Shown here in pieces: positions 7,734 to 18,482 of a stretch of DNA of 36,578 nt. The notes under the pieces were generated by a model. The model worked only from the letters and a program-made list of their open reading frames with translations. It had not been told where the DNA came from and ran no database searches. The DNA lies in NCBI GenBank assembly GCA_020350445.1, contig CP070717.1:4659457-4696034 (forward strand), written 5' to 3'. Source of the DNA: Acidobacteriota bacterium (GTDB taxonomy: Bacteria > Acidobacteriota > UBA6911 > RPQK01 > JAPXNP01). Every line of letters starts with the position of its first letter. Position 1 is the first letter of the stretch. The translations under genes were made by a program, and so were the position numbers.

Positions 7734-8381
7734 CTAGAAGATTGGATTTCGCCACTGGTTCAGAACTGTTCCAACGACGTTGGCTCCTGCAGTTTCAAGA
7801 GCCATGATCGACCTTTTGACCTGCTGTCGTGGGGAAACGCCACCGAGGACTGAAACGATTACGCCGTCAGCTTCGGCTGAGATAACAACTGGGTCGACCA
7901 TGTTCCGGTTTGCGGGGTAGATAGCCGCGGTATCGACCAGCACAAGGTCGTAGACCTTTTTTGCCTCGTTTAGAATCTTCACCGCCCCGGCTACTACCGC
8001 GGCGGCTGTGCTCTTCGTTTCCTGATCTGCTTGCGGAGCGGTGATTACTTCGACGTTAGGAAACGGGGTCTTCTGTACCTGCGCTTCAAGTTCCTGGCCT
8101 TCGAGTAGGGCTGGCAGGTCAAATTCCTGTTCGACTCCGAAGGTCAGGTGGAGGCAGGGGCGATACCAGTTGAAATCGACGGCCAGCACCTTCTTTTCTC
8201 CGTATGACGCTGCTGTCAATGCCAGCAAGGTCAGCAGGGAGGTCTTGCCCTCTTGAGCTTCAGCGCTCGTTACGACACAGCTCGGCCCTTTGAAGCCGCT
8301 TAGTTGTCTTTCGACAACGCTATAGATCCTTTTGATTTCTGCAACTTCAGATAGTGCGCTGAGTTGTTTCTGAGTGAACAT
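7734..8381 (-). CDS. BY-kinase/CpsD-like P-loop ATPase without tyrosine tail
   Basis: This 215-aa cytoplasmic protein has the MinD/BY-kinase fold. It shows a Walker A region (SAEAQEGKTSLL), a Walker A' strand reading VLAVDFNWYRP where the usual D-x-D is D-F-N, and a Walker B region (DLVLVDTAAIY), then the VIVSVLGGVSPRQQV and VVGTVLNQ strands typical of CpsD/CapB/Wzc ATPase domains. It ends at QWRNPIF, so the C-terminal tyrosine cluster that BY-kinases autophosphorylate is absent. I placed the start at ATG 8381; an in-frame ATG at 8443 would add about 20 residues and cannot be excluded, as neither has a strong ribosome site. It probably pairs with the Wzz-like protein encoded immediately downstream. 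Confidence 0.82.
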   Translation of the reverse strand: MFTQKQLSALSEVAEIKRIYSVVERQLSGFKGPSCVVTSAEAQEGKTSLLTLLALTAASYGEKKVLAVDFNWYRPCLHLTFGVEQEFDLPALLEGQELEAQVQKTPFPNVEVITAPQADQETKSTAAAVVAGAVKILNEAKKVYDLVLVDTAAIYPANRNMVDPVVISAEADGVIVSVLGGVSPRQQVKRSIMALETAGANVVGTVLNQWRNPIF

Positions 8382-8490
8382 CCGGTTTCGACTACCTAAT
8401 TTACGTGAACGATCTGAAAAAGCATAGGATTGGCGAGTCATTCTACACAATGCCTGAGGGGGATACCGTTGGGCTCTCGACTCCGGGTGG

Positions 8491-8519
8491 TTTTCACTTC
8501 GCATGGGCGGTGGTATTCT
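8491..8519 (+). promoter_or_regulatory. Weak sigma-70-like promoter for the bd-like oxidase genes
   Basis: TTTTCA and TATTCT are separated by 17 bases and lie about 40 bases before the start of the oxidase gene, in the 177-base divergent region shared with the ATPase gene. Each hexamer matches the consensus at four of six positions, so this is only a candidate. Confidence 0.22.
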
Positions 8520-8558
8520 CGCGACCTGTAGGTTTTGCCGAGTTCGCGGAGTCAGGCT

Positions 8559-10295
8559 ATGAACTATCCAATCTGGGACCTCCCGGCGAGTGGGCTGTTG
8601 ATCGCCGGCGTTGCGATCGTCCACGTTTTCATCTCGCATTTTGCGGTAGGAGGCGGACTCTTTCTCGTTCTCTTGGAATGGAGGGCTCGAAATACCGGCC
8701 ATGAGCCTCTGCTCGACTATGTGAGAAAGCACTCGCAATTCTTCATTCTTCTGACACTCGTGGGAGGGGCGATCACGGGTGTGGGAATCTGGTTCACCAT
8801 CGGACTGGTCCATCCGCAGGCGACATCGACGCTGATTCAGACGTTTGTCTGGGTCTGGGCGATGGAATGGACATTCTTCGTTACGGAAATTGCGGCTGCG
8901 ATGGTCTATTTCTATGGATGGGATTATCTGGGGCCGAAGACGCACCAGAGGATTGGCTGGATCTATCTAGTTTCCGCCTGGATGAGCCTTTTCACCATCA
9001 ATGGGATCCTGACTTTCATGCTGACTCCGGGGGATTGGATCGTCACCCGTTCCCTGCTTGATGGATTCTTCAATCCCACGTTCTGGCCTGCTCTAGTTTC
9101 GCGAACCATGGTGGCAGTGGGGTTGGCCGGGTTGTATGCCCTGTTGACCGCATCCTGGCTGAAGGATGTTTCATTGCGCGAAACGGTCGCTCGCTATGCC
9201 TCCCTGCGCTGGGTCCTTCCCAGTATGGTGGTCCTGCCGCCAGCATTGCTCTGGTTCCTCTCGGCGGCCGATGATGCAGGTGTTCCTGTCTCGGAGGTCC
9301 TGGGCGCCGCCGGAGGCTTCTGGTGGAACTGGTTGGCAGCTGTCTTTCTGAGGGATCCGTCGAGTGGTTATCCCATGGCCCAACTGGGAGGTTTCATCCT
9401 GCTTGCTGCTTCGATATTGATTGTCATCGCGACCCTGGTTGTCGGTGTTGCAATGCCGAAATACCTTCGTCCCGCGGTGAGTATTCCGTTGTTGGTACTG
9501 GGCCTGCTCGCCTTTGGGGGCGGTGAGTTTGTGCGGGAAGACCTGAGAAAGCCGTATGTGCTGGGACAGATCATGTTCGTGAATGGGGCGTTGCTTCCTT
9601 CGGAGAGCTCTTCTCCGGGAACCGGCCAGGATCACGAGACGATCGCTTCTGTCTATTCATTGCCCGGGCTTTCAGAAACCGGGGTGTTGCCCGTTTCCCG
9701 CTGGACCGATCCGGCCTTACGGGGTCCGTCCCCTGCCTCTGGGGAAGAGGTTTCGATTGAACGTGGACGGGAAGTCTTTCGCCTGCTCTGTTCGACTTGC
9801 CACACCACGGAGGGGCATCTGGGAATCACCGGTCTGGTTGCAGGGCAGTCGTCAGAAACCATCGAGAGTGTCGTGGCACGCCTGGCGGTTCCTGTGTCCG
9901 AGTCGGGTGAAGATACCGACTGGGCTGGTTTGCCGAGGAAGATCCGGAGCTGGCGCGGTCGGAGAATGCCTCCGTTCGCCGGTTCGGATTTGGAGCGGCA
10001 ATCGCTGGCTCTCTACCTGGATTCGTTGGATGGATCACTTGCTGGGGCAGCCGAGGTTTCTCTGGGTCAGCAGGTGTTCGAGAGACGCTGTGTATTCTGT
10101 CATGGCAATGAAGCGGATTGGGCGATGGTGAGATTGGCGCCCGGACGCAATGCCCCGGAGTTTTACGAGCGAATTGGCCGGCTGCCGACGATCAGTCCGA
10201 TCATGCCACCGTTTGAAGGAACCGAAGAGGACCGGTTGGCCCTGTCCCAGTATCTGGCTGAACTGGTAAGTGTCGATTCAGGGAAGGTTCAATAA
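8559..10295 (+). CDS. Cytochrome bd-like (CydA-like) subunit fused to a di-haem cytochrome c domain
   Basis: The protein is 578 aa. Residues 1 to about 345 form a multi-TM CydA-like domain. HVFISHFAVGGG places H22 where CydA has its high-spin haem ligand, with an additional H27. A helix with E103 and E110 runs into YFYGWDYLG, like the CydA E99/E107 proton-channel helix. GGEFVREDLRKPYV resembles the CydA GWxxxExGRQPW segment. The CydA H186-type haem ligand is not obvious. After a linker come two c-type haem sites, CSTCH (C411, C414, H415) and CVFCH (C511, C514, H515), presumably periplasmic. The ATG at 8559 is preceded by GGAG at seven bases. It probably oxidises quinol or cytochrome c and may reduce oxygen, but the substrates are inferred. 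It is coupled to the next gene by TAATG. Confidence 0.85.
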   Translation: MNYPIWDLPASGLLIAGVAIVHVFISHFAVGGGLFLVLLEWRARNTGHEPLLDYVRKHSQFFILLTLVGGAITGVGIWFTIGLVHPQATSTLIQTFVWVWAMEWTFFVTEIAAAMVYFYGWDYLGPKTHQRIGWIYLVSAWMSLFTINGILTFMLTPGDWIVTRSLLDGFFNPTFWPALVSRTMVAVGLAGLYALLTASWLKDVSLRETVARYASLRWVLPSMVVLPPALLWFLSAADDAGVPVSEVLGAAGGFWWNWLAAVFLRDPSSGYPMAQLGGFILLAASILIVIATLVVGVAMPKYLRPAVSIPLLVLGLLAFGGGEFVREDLRKPYVLGQIMFVNGALLPSESSSPGTGQDHETIASVYSLPGLSETGVLPVSRWTDPALRGPSPASGEEVSIERGREVFRLLCSTCHTTEGHLGITGLVAGQSSETIESVVARLAVPVSESGEDTDWAGLPRKIRSWRGRRMPPFAGSDLERQSLALYLDSLDGSLAGAAEVSLGQQVFERRCVFCHGNEADWAMVRLAPGRNAPEFYERIGRLPTISPIMPPFEGTEEDRLALSQYLAELVSVDSGKVQ

Positions 10296-11398
10296 TGGAA
10301 ACCGCGCTGACAACTGTGATTCCGTTACCGGATTCCGTACCACTGGCGGCTCCGCCGACGCTCTTCTGGGGGCTGCTGCTGCTAACGTTCTTTCTCCATT
10401 TAATCCCGATGAACCTGGTCCTGGGTGGAAGTGTCATCCTGGTGGTCAATCGGTTCCGCGGCGGCGGGGAGGTACTGTCGTCTGCATTGAATCCGGTTGT
10501 GAAGTGGTTTCCGGTCGTTGTGGCAGCGGCTGTCTCTTTCGGTGTGGCTCCCCTGCTCTTCGTTCAGGTGTTGTATGGAAGGCTACTCTATACGAGTTCA
10601 GTATTGATCGGATGGGCCTGGTGGCTGGTGATTCCGGTCTTGATCCTGGCGTACTATGGCGTCTACTACAGCGCGTTTCGATCCGGCGAGAAGGGAAGGG
10701 GACTGCGCTGGGTTGGATTGGGATCAGCCGCAGGATTCCTGCTGATAGGGTTCACCCTGAGCAACAACATGTCGCTGATGTTGAGGCCCGAGCAGTTTCT
10801 TTCAATCTATCGGGCTGACCCGAGCGGCTGGAATCTGAATTGGAGTGACCCCACGCTGATCCCCCGATACCTGCACATGCTGATTGGTTCAATCGGTGTG
10901 AGCGGGATGGCGCTGGCCCTGACCGGGTACTGCTGTCGCCGGAGTTGCGGTGAGAATGCAATCTGGATGATGCGACAGGGCGGTTTCTGGTTCCTGATAG
11001 CCACGGTTCTGAACTTCCTGGTGGGGACCTGGTTCTTGCTTTCCTACGATGCCGTGGTTCTGCGGGCATTCATGAGCCAGGGCGCCGCGGCGCTGCTCCC
11101 GCTCGTGGCGGGTATTATCCTGGGACTGATTGCCCTGGCTGTTGTGTTTCTTGATTCCCAGCGTCCTGAGCCGGGAATAGGTATCCCGGTAGGAAGCGCA
11201 ATCCTGGCGCTGACCCTGATAGCGATGATCCTGGTGCGTGATCAGATTCGCCAGGCGGCTCTGGCCAGTGTCTTTGAACCAGCTTCCTGGACAGTTCCTC
11301 AGTGGGGTGCGATTTCGATCTTCTTTGTCCTACTGCTTGCGGCAGTCGTAACGGTCCTCTGGATGCTCACGCGTGGAAGTCGCAATGGTTCATCATAA
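10295..11398 (+). CDS. Companion multi-TM subunit of the bd-like complex (second CydA-like protein)
   Basis: This 367-aa integral membrane protein has about nine hydrophobic segments and starts within the stop codon of the preceding gene (TAATG), so the two are surely co-expressed. FLHLIPMNLVLGG places H35 where CydA has its first haem ligand, and RYLHMLIGSIGVSGM places H194 where CydA has H186. The helix corresponding to the CydA glutamate pair reads GWAWWLVIPVLILAYYGVYY and has no acidic residue. It therefore looks like a CydA paralogue complementing the first subunit, reminiscent of CydAA' pairs, and I do not recognise it as CydB. This is an eye alignment. It has no c-type haem motif. Its 3' end overlaps the convergent aldo/keto reductase gene by 32 bases. 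Confidence 0.8.
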   Translation: METALTTVIPLPDSVPLAAPPTLFWGLLLLTFFLHLIPMNLVLGGSVILVVNRFRGGGEVLSSALNPVVKWFPVVVAAAVSFGVAPLLFVQVLYGRLLYTSSVLIGWAWWLVIPVLILAYYGVYYSAFRSGEKGRGLRWVGLGSAAGFLLIGFTLSNNMSLMLRPEQFLSIYRADPSGWNLNWSDPTLIPRYLHMLIGSIGVSGMALALTGYCCRRSCGENAIWMMRQGGFWFLIATVLNFLVGTWFLLSYDAVVLRAFMSQGAAALLPLVAGIILGLIALAVVFLDSQRPEPGIGIPVGSAILALTLIAMILVRDQIRQAALASVFEPASWTVPQWGAISIFFVLLLAAVVTVLWMLTRGSRNGSS

Positions 11399-12323
11399 AG
11401 TGATTGAACGCTGCCACTGAAGGTTCGACCTCTTTTCGAATCCGCACTTTCTCAGGCTCCGCCAGCGGCTGAAAATCACGTGCCAGCTGAATGTTCTCGC
11501 TGATGAACTCTTTCCTGGGCATTCCGACAACGCAGCTGGCAACGGGAAGACTCATGGAGTAGTAGAGCAGGTCGCGTATGCCGGCCTTTCCACGCTCATT
11601 GCCTACCAGCGTTTCCTGTCCCGTAATCTTCATTGCGAGAATCCCCAGGTTCTTCTTCCGGGCGGCGGGAAGGGCGACTCGTTCAAACGCAGTCGAGAAA
11701 CCTGAATTGGTGGCGGCATTGAGGGCCATCTGCACGCAGTTCAAGTCGTGGCGTTCGATCGCCGTCTTCATCGTTTCCGCGTCCGAATGAGAAGTCATGC
11801 CGATGAAGCGGGCCATTCCTTCTTCCCGGGCCTGGTAGAGGGCCTTCAAAACACCGTCGGAAGCTTCGATCGCCGCCAGGTCATCCATCTTTTCGAGGGA
11901 GTGGATATGCAGCAGATCGACGTGGTCCGTCTGCAATCGCTGGAGGCTGGCTTCGATCGTTTTCATCGCATCGTCATACTTACGATCGGAAAGCTTGGTT
12001 GCGAGAAACACCTCTTTGCGCCGGTCTTTCAGGACCTTTCCGTAGCGCGTCTCGCTTGCTCCGTTGCCGTAGGCTTGAGCTGTGTCGAGGTAATTGATCC
12101 CTGAGTCTATGACTCCGTTCAATACTTGGAGAGCCTCTTCCTCGTCTTCAAACATCAGGAAACGGCTTCCGCCACCGAAGGCCAGGATTGACACTTCCGC
12201 CCCGGTCTGACCGAGAACGCGGCGAGGAATCAGGGGAGCGGCGCCGGCCTTCAGGCTGGCTGCTGTACCGACCCCAACTGCGGTTGCTGTCAAGAAGTCT
12301 CTGCGCGTAAGTTCGTGTGACAT
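11367..12323 (-). CDS. Tat-exported aldo/keto reductase
   Basis: This 318-aa protein begins with a twin-arginine signal (TRRDFLTATAVGVG, then an Ala-rich region to about residue 29). The mature part is a complete aldo/keto reductase barrel: GINYLDTAQAYGNG supplies the Asp and Tyr, VFLATKLSD the Lys and VDLLHIHSL the His of the catalytic tetrad. Such enzymes reduce carbonyls with NAD(P)H; Tat export would carry a folded, cofactor-loaded enzyme to the periplasm. The ribosome site before ATG 12323 is weak. The C-terminus has HFMMNHCDFHA. Its gene end overlaps the oxidase subunit gene on the other strand, leaving no terminator between them. The substrate is unknown. Confidence 0.9.
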   Translation of the reverse strand: MSHELTRRDFLTATAVGVGTAASLKAGAAPLIPRRVLGQTGAEVSILAFGGGSRFLMFEDEEEALQVLNGVIDSGINYLDTAQAYGNGASETRYGKVLKDRRKEVFLATKLSDRKYDDAMKTIEASLQRLQTDHVDLLHIHSLEKMDDLAAIEASDGVLKALYQAREEGMARFIGMTSHSDAETMKTAIERHDLNCVQMALNAATNSGFSTAFERVALPAARKKNLGILAMKITGQETLVGNERGKAGIRDLLYYSMSLPVASCVVGMPRKEFISENIQLARDFQPLAEPEKVRIRKEVEPSVAAFNHFMMNHCDFHA

Positions 12324-13428: not shown

Positions 13429-15246
13429 ATGAGTGAGACGCTGAAGGAAACCGTGGGAGAAGTGTGTCGTTCGGTCGAGTTTGACAGGTCTCGAATGATC
13501 GACGTTGTAAGGGAGGTCCAGAAACGGTACGGCAATGTCTCGGGGGAGGCGATGGAACTGATAGCCCGGGAATTGAAGACTCACCGGGTTGAAGTCGAGA
13601 GCGTCGTGTCGTTCTATGCGTTCCTTTCCGAGATGAGACAGGGGAAGGTGGTCATTCGACTCTGCAACGACGTGATCGACAGGATGCATGGCGCAGATCG
13701 AGTGCTCGCGGCCTTCGAAGAAGAACTGGGTATCCGGGTTGGTGAGACAACACCCGACGGAGAGATCACCCTGACGACGACGGCCTGTATCGGAATGAGT
13801 GACCAGGCCCCGGCGGCACTGATTAATGATGTGGTGGTCAATCATCTCTCATCGGATCTCGCCAGAGAAATTGTCTGGGAACTCAAACAGCATGGGAATC
13901 CTGCCCTGCTGGTTAAGAATCTGGGCGACGGGAACAACGCCAGTGAACTGGTTTCAGCGATGGTGAAGAACAATATTCGCCATCGGGGAGCGGTCATTCT
14001 TTCCCGTGCCGCCACTGGCCAGGGACTCGAGACGGCGCTGGCCATGACACCGGCCGAAGTAATCCGCAACGTCAAGACTGCGCGTCTGCGCGGACGAGGA
14101 GGGGCTGGCTTTCCCACTGGGATGAAGTGGGAGTTCACTCGTGCCGGGAGTGCGGCAGAACGGGTGATCGTCTGCAATGCTGACGAAGGGGAGCCGGGTA
14201 CTTTCAAGGACCGGGTGATTCTCACGGAGTGTCCGGATCTGATGTTCGAGGGTATGACGATTGGAGCTTATGCAATCGGAGCTTCCCTTGGAATTGTCTA
14301 CCTGCGTGCCGAGTACGCCTATCTGAAGAGGTTCCTTGAATCGGTTCTCGATCGACGTCGAAGTGAGGGTGTTCTGGGGAGGGGGATTTGTGGCCTCGAG
14401 GGATTCGATTTCGATATTCGAATTCAGATGGGAGCGGGAGCTTACATCTGTGGGGAAGAGACGGCCCTGCTGAGCTCGTGTGAAGGAGTGCGAGGGGATC
14501 CGAAGAACCGTCCCCCGTTTCCTGCACAGAAGGGGTATCTCGGCCTGCCGACCTCAGTCAACAATGTTGAGACTCTCTGCTGTGTTGCCCGGATCATGGA
14601 GCATGGACCCGGATGGTTTACGGCTCTCGGATCGGAACAAAGTGCGGGCACAAAGCTCCTGAGTATTTCCGGAGACTGCAAGCGATCCGGTGTCTATGAA
14701 CTTCCGCTGGGTATCCCACTCAGAGAGCTTCTGAAACTTGCCGGGGCAGAAGATGCGCAGGCCATACAGGTCGGAGGGCCCAGCGGCCAGATGGTGGGAC
14801 CGGACGCCTTTGACCGCACGATCTGTTACGACGACCTGTCCACGGGAGGCTCGATAATGGTCTTCGGCCCGAAACGCAAGATTCTGGAAGTGGTGGATGC
14901 CTTTTTGGAATTCTTTGTCGAAGAGAGCTGTGGATACTGTACTCCCTGCCGGGTGGGCAATGTCCTGCTGAAGAAGGCTGTGGCGAAGCTGATTTCAGGG
15001 AAAGGATCGCAGAAAGACCTGGCCTATTTGCAGAGCCTGGCCGAGACCGTGAAGAAGACCAGTCGCTGTGGGCTCGGGCAGACCTCACCCAACCCGGTTC
15101 TATCGACACTCGAGAATTTCCGGTCGGTGTATGAAGAGGTTCTGGTGGCAGGTGAAGCCGGCCTGCAGCACGATTTCGAGCTTTCCAGGGCGGTCTCTCA
15201 AGCCGCCCGAATTGCCGGACGTACCTCGGCCCATCTGCACCCTTAA
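13429..15246 (+). CDS. hoxF: NAD-linked [NiFe] hydrogenase diaphorase subunit HoxF (NuoE-NuoF fusion)
   Basis: This 605-aa cytoplasmic flavoprotein binds FMN and NAD(H) and exchanges electrons between hydrogenase and NAD+. An N-terminal NuoE-like domain (residues 1-150) precedes a NuoF-like core with GRGGAGFPTG (about 221-230), NADEGEPGTFKDR (about 249-261), GAGAYICGEETALL, and the 4Fe-4S ligands ESCGYCTPC (about 499-507) with SRCGLG (about 544). Length and architecture closely match Ralstonia HoxF. In the NuoE-like domain only two of four cluster cysteines remain: C79 and C120 stay, while the partner positions are D84 and S124. The N-terminal 2Fe-2S cluster is therefore probably absent, as I recall for Ralstonia HoxF. 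TAGGA lies seven to eight bases before the ATG. It is the first gene of hoxFUYHW. Confidence 0.95.
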   Translation: MSETLKETVGEVCRSVEFDRSRMIDVVREVQKRYGNVSGEAMELIARELKTHRVEVESVVSFYAFLSEMRQGKVVIRLCNDVIDRMHGADRVLAAFEEELGIRVGETTPDGEITLTTTACIGMSDQAPAALINDVVVNHLSSDLAREIVWELKQHGNPALLVKNLGDGNNASELVSAMVKNNIRHRGAVILSRAATGQGLETALAMTPAEVIRNVKTARLRGRGGAGFPTGMKWEFTRAGSAAERVIVCNADEGEPGTFKDRVILTECPDLMFEGMTIGAYAIGASLGIVYLRAEYAYLKRFLESVLDRRRSEGVLGRGICGLEGFDFDIRIQMGAGAYICGEETALLSSCEGVRGDPKNRPPFPAQKGYLGLPTSVNNVETLCCVARIMEHGPGWFTALGSEQSAGTKLLSISGDCKRSGVYELPLGIPLRELLKLAGAEDAQAIQVGGPSGQMVGPDAFDRTICYDDLSTGGSIMVFGPKRKILEVVDAFLEFFVEESCGYCTPCRVGNVLLKKAVAKLISGKGSQKDLAYLQSLAETVKKTSRCGLGQTSPNPVLSTLENFRSVYEEVLVAGEAGLQHDFELSRAVSQAARIAGRTSAHLHP

Positions 15247-15258
15247 GGAGAATTCACA

Positions 15259-15978
15259 GTGAACAAGACAGTCATATTCCTGTTGGATGGAGAAGTCATA
15301 GAGGGGAGCCCCGGAAAGACGATACTTGAAGCTGCTGAGGACGCAGGGAAGTACATTCCCAGGCTTTGTGCATACAAGGGACTGGCCCCGCACGGGAGTT
15401 GCCGGGTCTGTACCGTCCTGGTTAACGGACGCCCCCAGGCCTCCTGCATCCAGCCGATTGCCGACGGGATTGTTGTTGAGAGTGAATCAGCTGAAGTACG
15501 GGAACTCAGGCGTGGGGTCATTGAAATGCTCTTCGTCGAGGGAAACCACTTTTGTATGTGTTGCGAGAAGAGCGGCAATTGTGAACTTCAGGCCCTGGCC
15601 TATCGATTCGGCATCACGGCGCCTCGGTATCCGTATCTCTTTCCCAAACGGGAGGTCGATGCCACGCATCCCTACATCCTCCTCGATCGGAACCGCTGCA
15701 TTCAGTGTGGACGTTGCGTGCGGGCTTCACGGGACGTGGATGGAAAGAATGTCTTTCAGTTCGGGGGGAGAGGTGCGGGAAAGAGGATCGCCGTTAACGC
15801 TGCCGGCGGGTTGGGCAAAACGGACGCGGCGGTGATTGATCAGGCCATCGAGGTCTGTCCGGTGGGGGCAATCTTACGGAAGCGGGTTGGATTCAGGGTT
15901 CCGGTTGGGAAGAGGAAGTTCGACCACCAGCCGATCGGTTCCGATATTGAAGGCAAAGCCGGTCCAACGGCGGTTTAG
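15259..15978 (+). CDS. hoxU: NAD-linked hydrogenase diaphorase small subunit HoxU
   Basis: This 239-aa iron-sulphur protein relays electrons between HoxF and HoxY. The plant-ferredoxin-like 2Fe-2S domain has C37, C48, C51 and C63. The NuoG-like second domain has H97, C99, C102 and C108 in NHFCMCCEKSGNC, and then a ferredoxin-type NRCIQCGRC with a closing Cys in EVCPVGAI. These match the cluster set of Ralstonia HoxU. C101 in the CMCC run is additional. The start is GTG at 15259 with AAGGAG eight bases upstream; it follows hoxF by 12 bases. Confidence 0.95.
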   Translation: MNKTVIFLLDGEVIEGSPGKTILEAAEDAGKYIPRLCAYKGLAPHGSCRVCTVLVNGRPQASCIQPIADGIVVESESAEVRELRRGVIEMLFVEGNHFCMCCEKSGNCELQALAYRFGITAPRYPYLFPKREVDATHPYILLDRNRCIQCGRCVRASRDVDGKNVFQFGGRGAGKRIAVNAAGGLGKTDAAVIDQAIEVCPVGAILRKRVGFRVPVGKRKFDHQPIGSDIEGKAGPTAV

Positions 15979-15989
15979 AGGAGAAGTCG

Positions 15990-16535
15990 ATGGAGAAGCC
16001 AAGAATCGCCACGACATCATTGGCGGGTTGTTTCGGGTGCCACATGTCGCTATTGGATATCGATGCGAGGATTCTGGATCTCGCTGAATTAGTTGAGTTT
16101 CACAAATCCCCAATCAACGATATTAAAGCCTTTGACCAGCACTGCGCTGTCGGCTTGATCGAAGGTGGCTGCTGCAATGAGGAGAACGTCAAGGTTCTTC
16201 GTGAGTTCAGAAGGAACTGCGACATCCTGGTCTCCGTCGGTGATTGCGCCATTATGGGTGGTATCCCCGCGATGAGGAACCTGGTTCCGCTCGAGGAATG
16301 TCTTCAAGAGGCATACTTGAACGGTCCAACCGTGTTCAACCCGTCGAAAAGGATTCCGAATGATCCTGAAATACCCCTGTTACTCGAGAAGGTCTATCCC
16401 TGTCATGAGGTGGTTGAGATCGACTATCACCTGCCGGGCTGTCCTCCACCTGCAGATACGTTGTGGGAGGCACTGGGGGCCCTGCTGAAGGGGAATCCAA
16501 TCGAACTCTCCTATGAGTTGATCAAGTATGACTGA
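15990..16535 (+). CDS. hoxY: [NiFe] hydrogenase small subunit HoxY
   Basis: The 181-aa cytoplasmic subunit carries the single proximal 4Fe-4S cluster between the NiFe site and HoxU. Its ligands are visible as C14 and C17 (AGCFGCHMS), C86 (VGDCAIMGG) and C151 (LPGCPPPAD). There is no signal peptide and no medial or distal cluster domain, as expected for group 3 enzymes. Unlike the HoxY I recall from Ralstonia, it has a Cys-Cys pair (C61-C62) in the EGGCCNEEN loop, and further cysteines at 52, 77, 104 and 138. GAGGAG precedes ATG 15990, 11 bases after hoxU. Confidence 0.95.
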   Translation: MEKPRIATTSLAGCFGCHMSLLDIDARILDLAELVEFHKSPINDIKAFDQHCAVGLIEGGCCNEENVKVLREFRRNCDILVSVGDCAIMGGIPAMRNLVPLEECLQEAYLNGPTVFNPSKRIPNDPEIPLLLEKVYPCHEVVEIDYHLPGCPPPADTLWEALGALLKGNPIELSYELIKYD

Positions 16536-16552
16536 GGCCAGGAGATGAGGTC

Positions 16553-17998
16553 GTGAATGCCAATCAAGGTTCAAAGAGAATTGTCATCGAGCCCGTTACC
16601 CGGGTGGAGGGCCACGGGAAAGTAACCATCCAACTCGATGAGCAACATCGTGTTACTCAGGCCCGCCTGCACATTGTCGAGTTTAGAGGTTTCGAGCGCT
16701 TCATCCAGGGACGCCCGTTTTGGGAGGTTCCAGTCCTGGTGCAGCGGCTGTGCGGGATCTGCCCTGTCAGTCATCACCTGGCTGCCGCGAAAGCCGTCGA
16801 CCGGCTCGTTGGAGCTGATGAACTGACACCGACGGCAACGAAACTGCGACTCCTGATGCATCACGGGCAGTTTCTGCAGTCGCATGCTCTACACTTCTTC
16901 CATCTTTGCTCGCCCGATCTGCTGTTTGGGTTTGACTCCGATGTTGCCCAAAGGAACGTGATCGGGGTTGCCGGACGCTATCCGGAACTTGCGAAACAGG
17001 GGGTTCTGCTCAGGAAATTCGGCCAGGAGATCATCCAGGCGACTGCAGGAAAGAAGATTCACGGGACGGGAGCGATCCCGGGCGGTGTCAACAAGAACCT
17101 CTCCCCAGCCGAGCGCGATCTTTTTCTGGGGCAAATGGACCAGATTCTCGGCTGGAGTCGATCAGCTCTTGGGCTGGCCAGGGAATACACGCTCGACAAC
17201 CTCGAGCGGCTGGCTCCTTTTGGTTCCTTTGATTCAAACCATCTCTCGATTGTCCGAAGCGATGGGGCCTACGGCATCTACGACGGCCTGCTGAGAGCCA
17301 GAGACGCCGCGGGAAAGCTGATTTTCGACCAGGTAGACAATCAGGAATACGACCGGTACATCGCCGAAGAAGTCCGTTCCTGGTCCTACATGAAGTTTCC
17401 CTTCATCCGGTCAATCGGGCCGGAGCTTGGGTGGTATCGAGTCGGCCCGCTGGCTCGAGTCAATAACTGTGATTTCTTTGACACACCCGAAGCGGAACGC
17501 GAGCGGCAAGGATTCATGGAACTCACCCAGGGAAAACCCAACAACCTGACCATGGCGTACCACTGGGCCCGAATGATCGAAATGCTGCATTCGGCCGAGA
17601 AGATCCAGGAGCTCCTGCACGACAGCGATCTGCAGGGCGAGGACCTCGTCGTCGAAGGAGAGCGGCGTGAAGAAGCGGTCGGGATCATTGAAGCGCCGAG
17701 AGGCACCCTGTTTCATCATTATCGGATTAACGAGAACGACCAGATCACGATGGCCAACCTGATTGTTTCGACCACGAGCAATAATGAAGCGATGAACCAG
17801 GCTGTCCGAAAGGTTGCAGAGGATACCCTGGACGGAGTCCCGGAGGTCACTGAGGGAATGTTGAACGGCATTGAGGTGGCGATTCGTGCCTACGATCCCT
17901 GTCTATCCTGTGCTACCCACGCCTTGGGGCAGATGCCGCTGCGGGTGGAACTAGTAGACATGGACGGGAATGTTGTGGATTCCCTGCAGAAGGGGTAA
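16553..17998 (+). CDS. hoxH: [NiFe] hydrogenase large subunit HoxH
   Basis: This 481-aa catalytic subunit splits or makes H2 at a Ni-Fe(CN)2CO centre. The motif RVEGHGK lies at residues 17-23; the nickel ligands are C67 and C70 in RLCGICPVSHH and C450 and C453 in DPCLSCATH. Following H456 is a 25-residue C-terminal peptide that must be removed for maturation; the protease gene is next door. The start is GTG 16553 with AGGAG eight bases upstream, 17 bases after hoxY. L1 and L2 motifs and operon order place it in group 3d (NAD-linked, bidirectional). The hyp genes for cofactor assembly are not in the window. Confidence 0.96.
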   Translation: MNANQGSKRIVIEPVTRVEGHGKVTIQLDEQHRVTQARLHIVEFRGFERFIQGRPFWEVPVLVQRLCGICPVSHHLAAAKAVDRLVGADELTPTATKLRLLMHHGQFLQSHALHFFHLCSPDLLFGFDSDVAQRNVIGVAGRYPELAKQGVLLRKFGQEIIQATAGKKIHGTGAIPGGVNKNLSPAERDLFLGQMDQILGWSRSALGLAREYTLDNLERLAPFGSFDSNHLSIVRSDGAYGIYDGLLRARDAAGKLIFDQVDNQEYDRYIAEEVRSWSYMKFPFIRSIGPELGWYRVGPLARVNNCDFFDTPEAERERQGFMELTQGKPNNLTMAYHWARMIEMLHSAEKIQELLHDSDLQGEDLVVEGERREEAVGIIEAPRGTLFHHYRINENDQITMANLIVSTTSNNEAMNQAVRKVAEDTLDGVPEVTEGMLNGIEVAIRAYDPCLSCATHALGQMPLRVELVDMDGNVVDSLQKG

Positions 17999-18002
17999 GG
18001 AT

Positions 18003-18482
18003 ATGAGTGGAGGGTTGTTACTCCTCTGTTATGGCAACCCCGGGAGGCGGGATGACGGACTGGGGGCCGCCTTTGCCGAGGCTGTCGAGAAGTCGCCCCC
18101 GGAAGGCGTGACGGTCGAAGTGAATTACCAGTTGATGATCGAGGACGCTGCTCGAATCGCAGAACATGACGCCGTAGTCTTCGTTGATGCAGCTGTGGTG
18201 GGCCCGGAGCCCTTTGACTTTAGAGTGATCGAAGGGAGCGCTTCGCGGTCATTCTCGACCCACTCCATCCTCCCCGAGGAGGTGCTGGGATTGGCCCGGG
18301 AGCTGTTTGGATCGCAGGGAAAGGGTTACGTGTTGGCCATCCGTGGGTACGTTTTCGAAGATTTCGGTGAAGCTCTCAGCAAAAGGGCGAAGGAAAACCT
18401 TTCGGCAGCGCTCGACTTCTTTGCCCAGTTTGCTGAGCGGGTGGTGGATTCGACTCAGAGGGCTGAACGGGTTCGCTGGTAG
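18003..18482 (+). CDS. hoxW: Hydrogenase maturation endopeptidase HoxW
   Basis: This 159-aa M52-family protease should cleave the C-terminal peptide of HoxH after nickel insertion. The signature YGNPGRRDDGLG opens the protein, with D17 in the place of the HybD Glu16 nickel contact; D62 (VFVDAA) and H87 (STHSI) fit the other two metal-binding positions. I chose ATG 18003, four bases after the hoxH stop and seven bases after GAAGGGG. A frame start at 17970 inside hoxH has no support. The C-terminal end is charged and not conserved in my memory of the family. Confidence 0.9.
   Translation: MSGGLLLLCYGNPGRRDDGLGAAFAEAVEKSPPEGVTVEVNYQLMIEDAARIAEHDAVVFVDAAVVGPEPFDFRVIEGSASRSFSTHSILPEEVLGLARELFGSQGKGYVLAIRGYVFEDFGEALSKRAKENLSAALDFFAQFAERVVDSTQRAERVRW

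Follow-up and report, generated by a model that had tools for sequence, protein, structure and literature searches.

Two adjacent genes on the forward strand, referred to here as P1 and P2, occupy positions 8559–11398 of a 36 578 nt window, the whole stretch of DNA that was analysed, taken from an Acidobacteriota bacterium (contig CP070717.1). P1 (8559–10295, +) encodes a CydA-like membrane subunit of 578 aa with eight helices and a C-terminal di-haem cytochrome c domain, while P2 (10295–11398, +) encodes a putative second CydA-like membrane subunit of 367 aa with nine predicted long helices and no quinol motif. The stop codon of P1 and the start codon of P2 overlap in the sequence TAATG (10293–10297, +), with one base in common. 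An earlier note, made from the letters alone, had placed the two ORFs and their TAATG coupling at exactly these coordinates. The ATG at 8559 was favoured over an upstream TTG as the start of P1 because homologues begin with MNYP(I/V)WD. The flanking genes lie on the opposite strand and are unrelated to the pair, and a promoter and terminator scan of 8300–11500 returned sites no more numerous than expected by chance.

An apparent NAD-coupled [NiFe] hydrogenase operon, assigned from Pfam matches, lies further along the window (13429–18482, +). Its order is a HoxEF-like fusion (2Fe-2S thioredoxin and Complex1_51K), followed by HoxU-like, HoxY-like and HoxH-like (NiFeSe_Hases) genes and finally a 170 aa ORF with no Pfam match, which may encode a maturation protease.

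The CydA-like chain and haem c domains of P1

P1 matched the Pfam model PF01654 (Cyt_bd_oxida_I) over aa 15–226 with an E-value of 1.6e-13 and 50.5 bits, above the curated cut-off of 26.2 bits. An AlphaFold2 (AF2) model (mean pLDDT 89.6) was searched against the PDB with Foldseek, and CydA chains filled the ten best places (E 3.7e-7 to 3.4e-6), with CydB chains appearing only from E 2.7e-3. P1 thus has both the CydA-type sequence and the CydA fold of the bd superfamily. The C-terminal region contains two stretches matching PF13442 (E 4.1e-12), a model of the cbb3 oxidase subunit III type. The first predicted haem c site, CSTCH (aa 411–415; 9789–9803, +), was matched by PF00034 as well as PF13442 and is conserved among homologues, with C411, C414, H415 and M470 invariant in 46 of them. 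The second, CVFCH (aa 511–515; 10089–10103, +), was read from the sequence and corresponds to the second PF13442 stretch. Chance occurrence of CxxCH was ruled out by the two Pfam stretches and the invariance of the first site. The c domains are fused in all full-length P1 homologues, with one, two, three or eight CxxCH motifs. The Pfam matches for both parts of the protein therefore bear out the previous description of the first subunit as CydA-like with two C-terminal CxxCH sites. Loop charges fit an eight-helix model with cytoplasmic loops after TM1, 3, 5 and 7, and hence are consistent with a periplasmic location of the c domain.

Affiliation of P2

No Pfam match below E 0.1, no NCBIfam match and no PDB sequence match were found for P2. 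With no model in either collection, this protein will be overlooked or misnamed in genome surveys. Comparison of P2 with P1 by hhalign gave a score of 97.9 % (E 5e-13, 275 columns), and profile comparison with three non-quinol, OR-N-like CydA-like proteins gave 94.9 %. The score against canonical CydA was 28 % over 60 columns, confined to the H186 helix, and that against CydB was 1.7 %; a control comparison of CydA with CydB gave 0.1 %. The AF2 model of P2 (mean pLDDT 90.1) also has the fold of the bd superfamily, with CydA as the best Foldseek match in the PDB (E 7.6e-6) and CydB chains from 6.8e-4. Because the TM-scores for CydB were similar to those for CydA, the search with this model cannot on its own tell the two families apart. 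A CydB identity was ruled out by the profile comparison, though not by the fold search, and the profile relation to P1 ruled out an unrelated protein. Judged from its profiles, P2 is a relative of P1 and of the CydA-like proteins and not a CydB. This agrees with the earlier note, which had read the second gene as CydA-like rather than as CydB and had proposed a profile comparison as a check: the best score did not fall on CydB, and alignment columns, tree and fold search likewise support two CydA-like subunits.

Division of haem-pocket residues between the subunits

Residues equivalent to those of the CydA haem pocket were located in a joint alignment of P1, P2, canonical CydA (qOR) and OR-N-like sequences. 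The H19 column, a haem ligand in CydA, contains His in all groups; it corresponds to H22 of P1 (8622–8624, +; 85 of 85 homologues covering the position) and to H35 of P2 (10397–10399, +; 108/108). E103 and E110 of P1 (8865–8888, +) align with the CydA glutamates E99 and E107 and are present in 90 of 90 homologues. At the E99 column, Glu occurs in P1 and qOR and Val or Ile in P2; at the E107 column, Glu occurs in P1, qOR and OR-N-like sequences and Ala or Gly in P2. The reverse pattern was seen at the H186 column, in which His is present in P2 (24/24), qOR and OR-N-like sequences but never in P1. P1 has Ser at this position, followed by Arg (S181-R182; 9099–9104, +), with His in 0/90 homologues and R182 in 90/90. 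The P2 residue is H194 (10874–10876, +), the equivalent of the haem b558 ligand H186; it is present in 108/108 homologues and the local match to the CydA profile falls on the same helix.

Two further glutamates of P1, E323 (90/90) and E327 (86/90), lie in GGGEFVREDLRKPY (9525–9539, +). The profile alignment pairs the REDLRKP motif of this segment with AEVGRQP in the E445 region of CydA (AEVGRQPW). This invariant and near-invariant pair goes beyond the residues listed previously for P1. Since E323 and E327 are kept besides H22, E103 and E110, P1 has the complete set expected for the di-haem pocket at the O2 site in the bd superfamily (H19, E99, E107 and the E445 region). No equivalent of CydA M393 was identified. 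The full sets of invariant residues were E103, E110, H129, R182, E323, R326 and R330 in 90 P1 homologues, and H35, Q91, R191, H194, M311, R315 and R319 in 108 P2 homologues, with M311 (11225–11227, +) on a late helix ahead of the two arginines.

The earlier note had assigned H22 and both channel glutamates, without a clear H186, to the first subunit, and H35 with an H186-like His, without glutamates, to the second. The homologue columns uphold both assignments and indicate that the split of key residues between P1 and P2 is real and family-wide.

Distribution, gene pairing and phylogeny

Homologues of P2 were found in 89 of 396 genomes of Acidobacteriota. A homologue of the operon also occurs in a cultivated organism, Granulicella sp. 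L46 (L051). A scan of GTDB contigs identified at least 567 relatives in many phyla, with Calditrichota, Krumholzibacteriota, Zixiibacteriota, Omnitrophota, Armatimonadota, Bacteroidota and Desulfobacterota among the matches listed; anaerobes such as Desulfuromusa and Desulforhopalus were also represented. P1 adjoins P2 on the same strand in 107 of 118 P2 loci, with P1 first in 93 and P2 first in 14. Nine of the other 11 loci reflect contig-end cuts or stop-to-stop framing, one (L066) has a framing problem with P1 adjacent, and one (L120) is a true orphan. As P1 therefore stands beside P2 in all testable loci but one, the pair behaves as one functional unit. In ten loci from different phyla no constant neighbours were seen, and the unit consisted of the two genes alone. 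The complex had been called unusual in the earlier note; this goes too far, as the same two-gene unit recurs in these 89 genomes and in many other phyla. The orphan is a lone P2 homologue on a Desulfobacteraceae contig (7989–9098 of L120), located just before a GTPase-like gene (MKPIVAIVGRPNVGKS).

A phylogeny of the bd superfamily was another check that had been suggested, and a joint tree recovered P1 and P2 as two separate clades. All P2 sequences grouped together with support of 100/94, which became 100/100 when the second subunit of a sister subtype was included; all P1 sequences grouped with the first subunit of the same subtype (100/97). P1 was sister to, and not inside, the three sequences that were assigned to the OR-N-like group in this analysis. 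The deepest branching order of the tree is not trusted, since P2 and qOR are joined in it by long branches. The separate clades indicate that the two subunits diverged before the family spread across phyla.

Several variants of the unit were observed. An eight-haem form of P1, of about 880 aa, carries an additional MtrC/MtrF-like domain in Desulfobacterota and Krumholzibacteriota, and here P2 precedes P1; such fusions with eight CxxCH motifs occur at L115 (9059–11698), L107 (9056–11704) and nine similar loci. A three-gene form, with two tandem mono-haem copies of P1 followed by P2, is present at L062 (5403–7996) and L088 (5378–7978). In the sister subtype (L167, L168), each subunit has one c haem site and the His split is the same. 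A pair of this subtype lies on the conjugative Agrobacterium tumefaciens plasmid pLN1-183666 (L169, 3505–6068); its annotation there is no more specific than c-type cytochrome and cytochrome C.

Electron donor and genome context

The quinol motif QPxK was present in 12 of 12 canonical CydA (qOR) sequences and in 0/90 P1 and 0/24 P2, counts that serve as a guide and not as proof, because an incomplete CydA fragment in the genome from which the window comes also escaped this simple pattern. That genome encodes three bc-type cytochrome b genes, a cluster of Rieske, cytochrome b, multihaem c and COX1 genes, and proteins for c-haem assembly, which makes a cytochrome c donor in the periplasm plausible. 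Taken from the motif and the gene content, the evidence on the donor leans towards cytochrome c and against quinol.

Three COX1-family oxidase genes are already present in the genome. Its canonical cydA (about 11561–12916 of L166; G000:C1:4046605–4047897) contains one in-frame TAG, reflecting either a sequencing error or a pseudogene. In this single-contig genome cydA and cydB are far apart, each beside a run of N (L162, 4164–7217; L001, about 1200). An apparent CydB fusion of 1018 aa is probably a gap artefact, as it spans an N run of this kind.

Proposed function and alternatives

The favoured interpretation, to which we give a probability of about 0.6, is that P1 and P2 form a heteromeric, non-quinol bd-type oxygen reductase fed by periplasmic cytochrome c, with a relay haem on H194 of P2. 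Electrons from a bc-type complex would pass through periplasmic cytochrome c to the two c haems of P1 on the periplasmic side. P1 would contain the O2-reducing di-haem pocket (H22, E103, E110 and E323/E327), and P2, as a CydA paralogue lacking the catalytic glutamates, would provide H194, whose counterpart in ordinary CydA is a ligand of low-spin haem b558, so that relay haem and active site would be in different chains. As in cytochrome bd, protons would be drawn from the cytoplasm, and charge would be separated without pumping. The three COX1-family genes, the relatives in anaerobes, the eight-haem forms, the missing M393 equivalent and the failure of the fold search to tell CydA from CydB for P2 were counted against this reading.

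The presence of relatives in anaerobic bacteria, Desulfuromusa and Desulforhopalus for example, together with the other oxidases of this genome, would also suit a bd-family enzyme whose main role is not O2 respiration but reduction of NO or peroxide, or scavenging of O2 to protect anaerobic metabolism. We regard such a role as unlikely, as P1 keeps the CydA-type O2-site residues and another substrate has no direct support. It is still less probable that the pair oxidizes quinol through a site other than the Q-loop, with the c haems as accessories: the motif counts, the short TM6–TM7 loop in the AF2 model of P1 and the fusion of c domains in every full-length P1 all argue against this, even though the fold is that of quinol-oxidizing bd enzymes and archaeal CydAA', likewise composed of two CydA paralogues, reportedly uses quinol.

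A third possibility is that the pair is an electron conduit, and not an oxidase, connecting quinones or periplasmic c-type cytochromes with multihaem partners. This would account for the arrangement in Desulfobacterota and Krumholzibacteriota of P2 followed by P1 with its eight-CxxCH, MtrC/MtrF-like fusion, and a non-oxidase role has been proposed for a bd-like protein of Nitrospina (PMC3578206). However, invariant O2-pocket glutamates would not be expected in a pure conduit and most members, including P1 of this window, have only one or two c haem sites, which makes a conduit improbable.

Under the favoured reading of a cytochrome c-fed oxygen reductase, the electron partner or direction may nonetheless differ within the family, given the relatives in anaerobes and the eight-haem MtrC-like forms. 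Tentatively, the family can be viewed as a class of bd oxidases with H186 on a paralogous partner and a c module extending from one haem to an eight-haem MtrC-like domain, some lineages being wired to multihaem cytochromes; this wider picture is possible rather than probable. If true, it would describe a modular, cytochrome c-fed bd oxidase with active site and relay haem in separate chains. The family also divides tasks cleanly between its duplicated CydA subunits, and it yields precise predictions for the assignment of haems to subunits, for the electron donor and for the feeding of bd-type O2 reduction by cytochrome c. As the arrangement is widespread, interest lies in the testable haem-ligand split and in the chemistry of the enzyme class.

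Comparison with known systems

P1 shares with canonical CydAB of the qOR type (Escherichia coli, Geobacillus) the CydA fold and the H19-, E99-, E107- and E445-like residues. The pair differs in three features that mark qOR, having no Q-loop motif, no CydB as second subunit and no H186 in the chain of the O2 site, where the His is found on the partner instead; it also has fused haem c. The c domains of P1 match the Pfam model of cbb3 oxidase subunit III (CcoP/FixP), but the operon lacks the haem-copper subunit of that enzyme.

P1–P2 falls among the non-quinol members of the bd superfamily that carry cytochrome c. Murali, Gennis and Hemp, in ISME J in 2021, are said to have described an OR-C family of non-quinol enzymes in which a haem c domain is fused to CydA. 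P1 likewise has no quinol motif and a haem c domain fused to a CydA-like chain, and the pair resembles and most likely belongs to this published class, the class names being taken from secondary mentions. Archaeal CydAA' (Caldivirga), reported in ISME J in 2021 to be a quinol oxidase, also has a membrane pair made up of two CydA paralogues. Genomes commonly encode non-quinol bd-type enzymes.

Two CydA-like subunits, with cytochrome c as the likely donor, have also been proposed for OR-N, or CydAA', of Nitrospirales and Nitrospinota (PMC10839748, PMC12342949), a family still described as uncharacterised (PMC10839748). P1–P2 resembles OR-N in both respects. It differs from the Acidobacteriota sequences that we labelled OR-N-like (L156, L157 and L159), which form a clade separate from P1 and P2, have no fused c domains, and carry H186 on the chain that also holds the E107-like Glu, with Tyr in place of E99.
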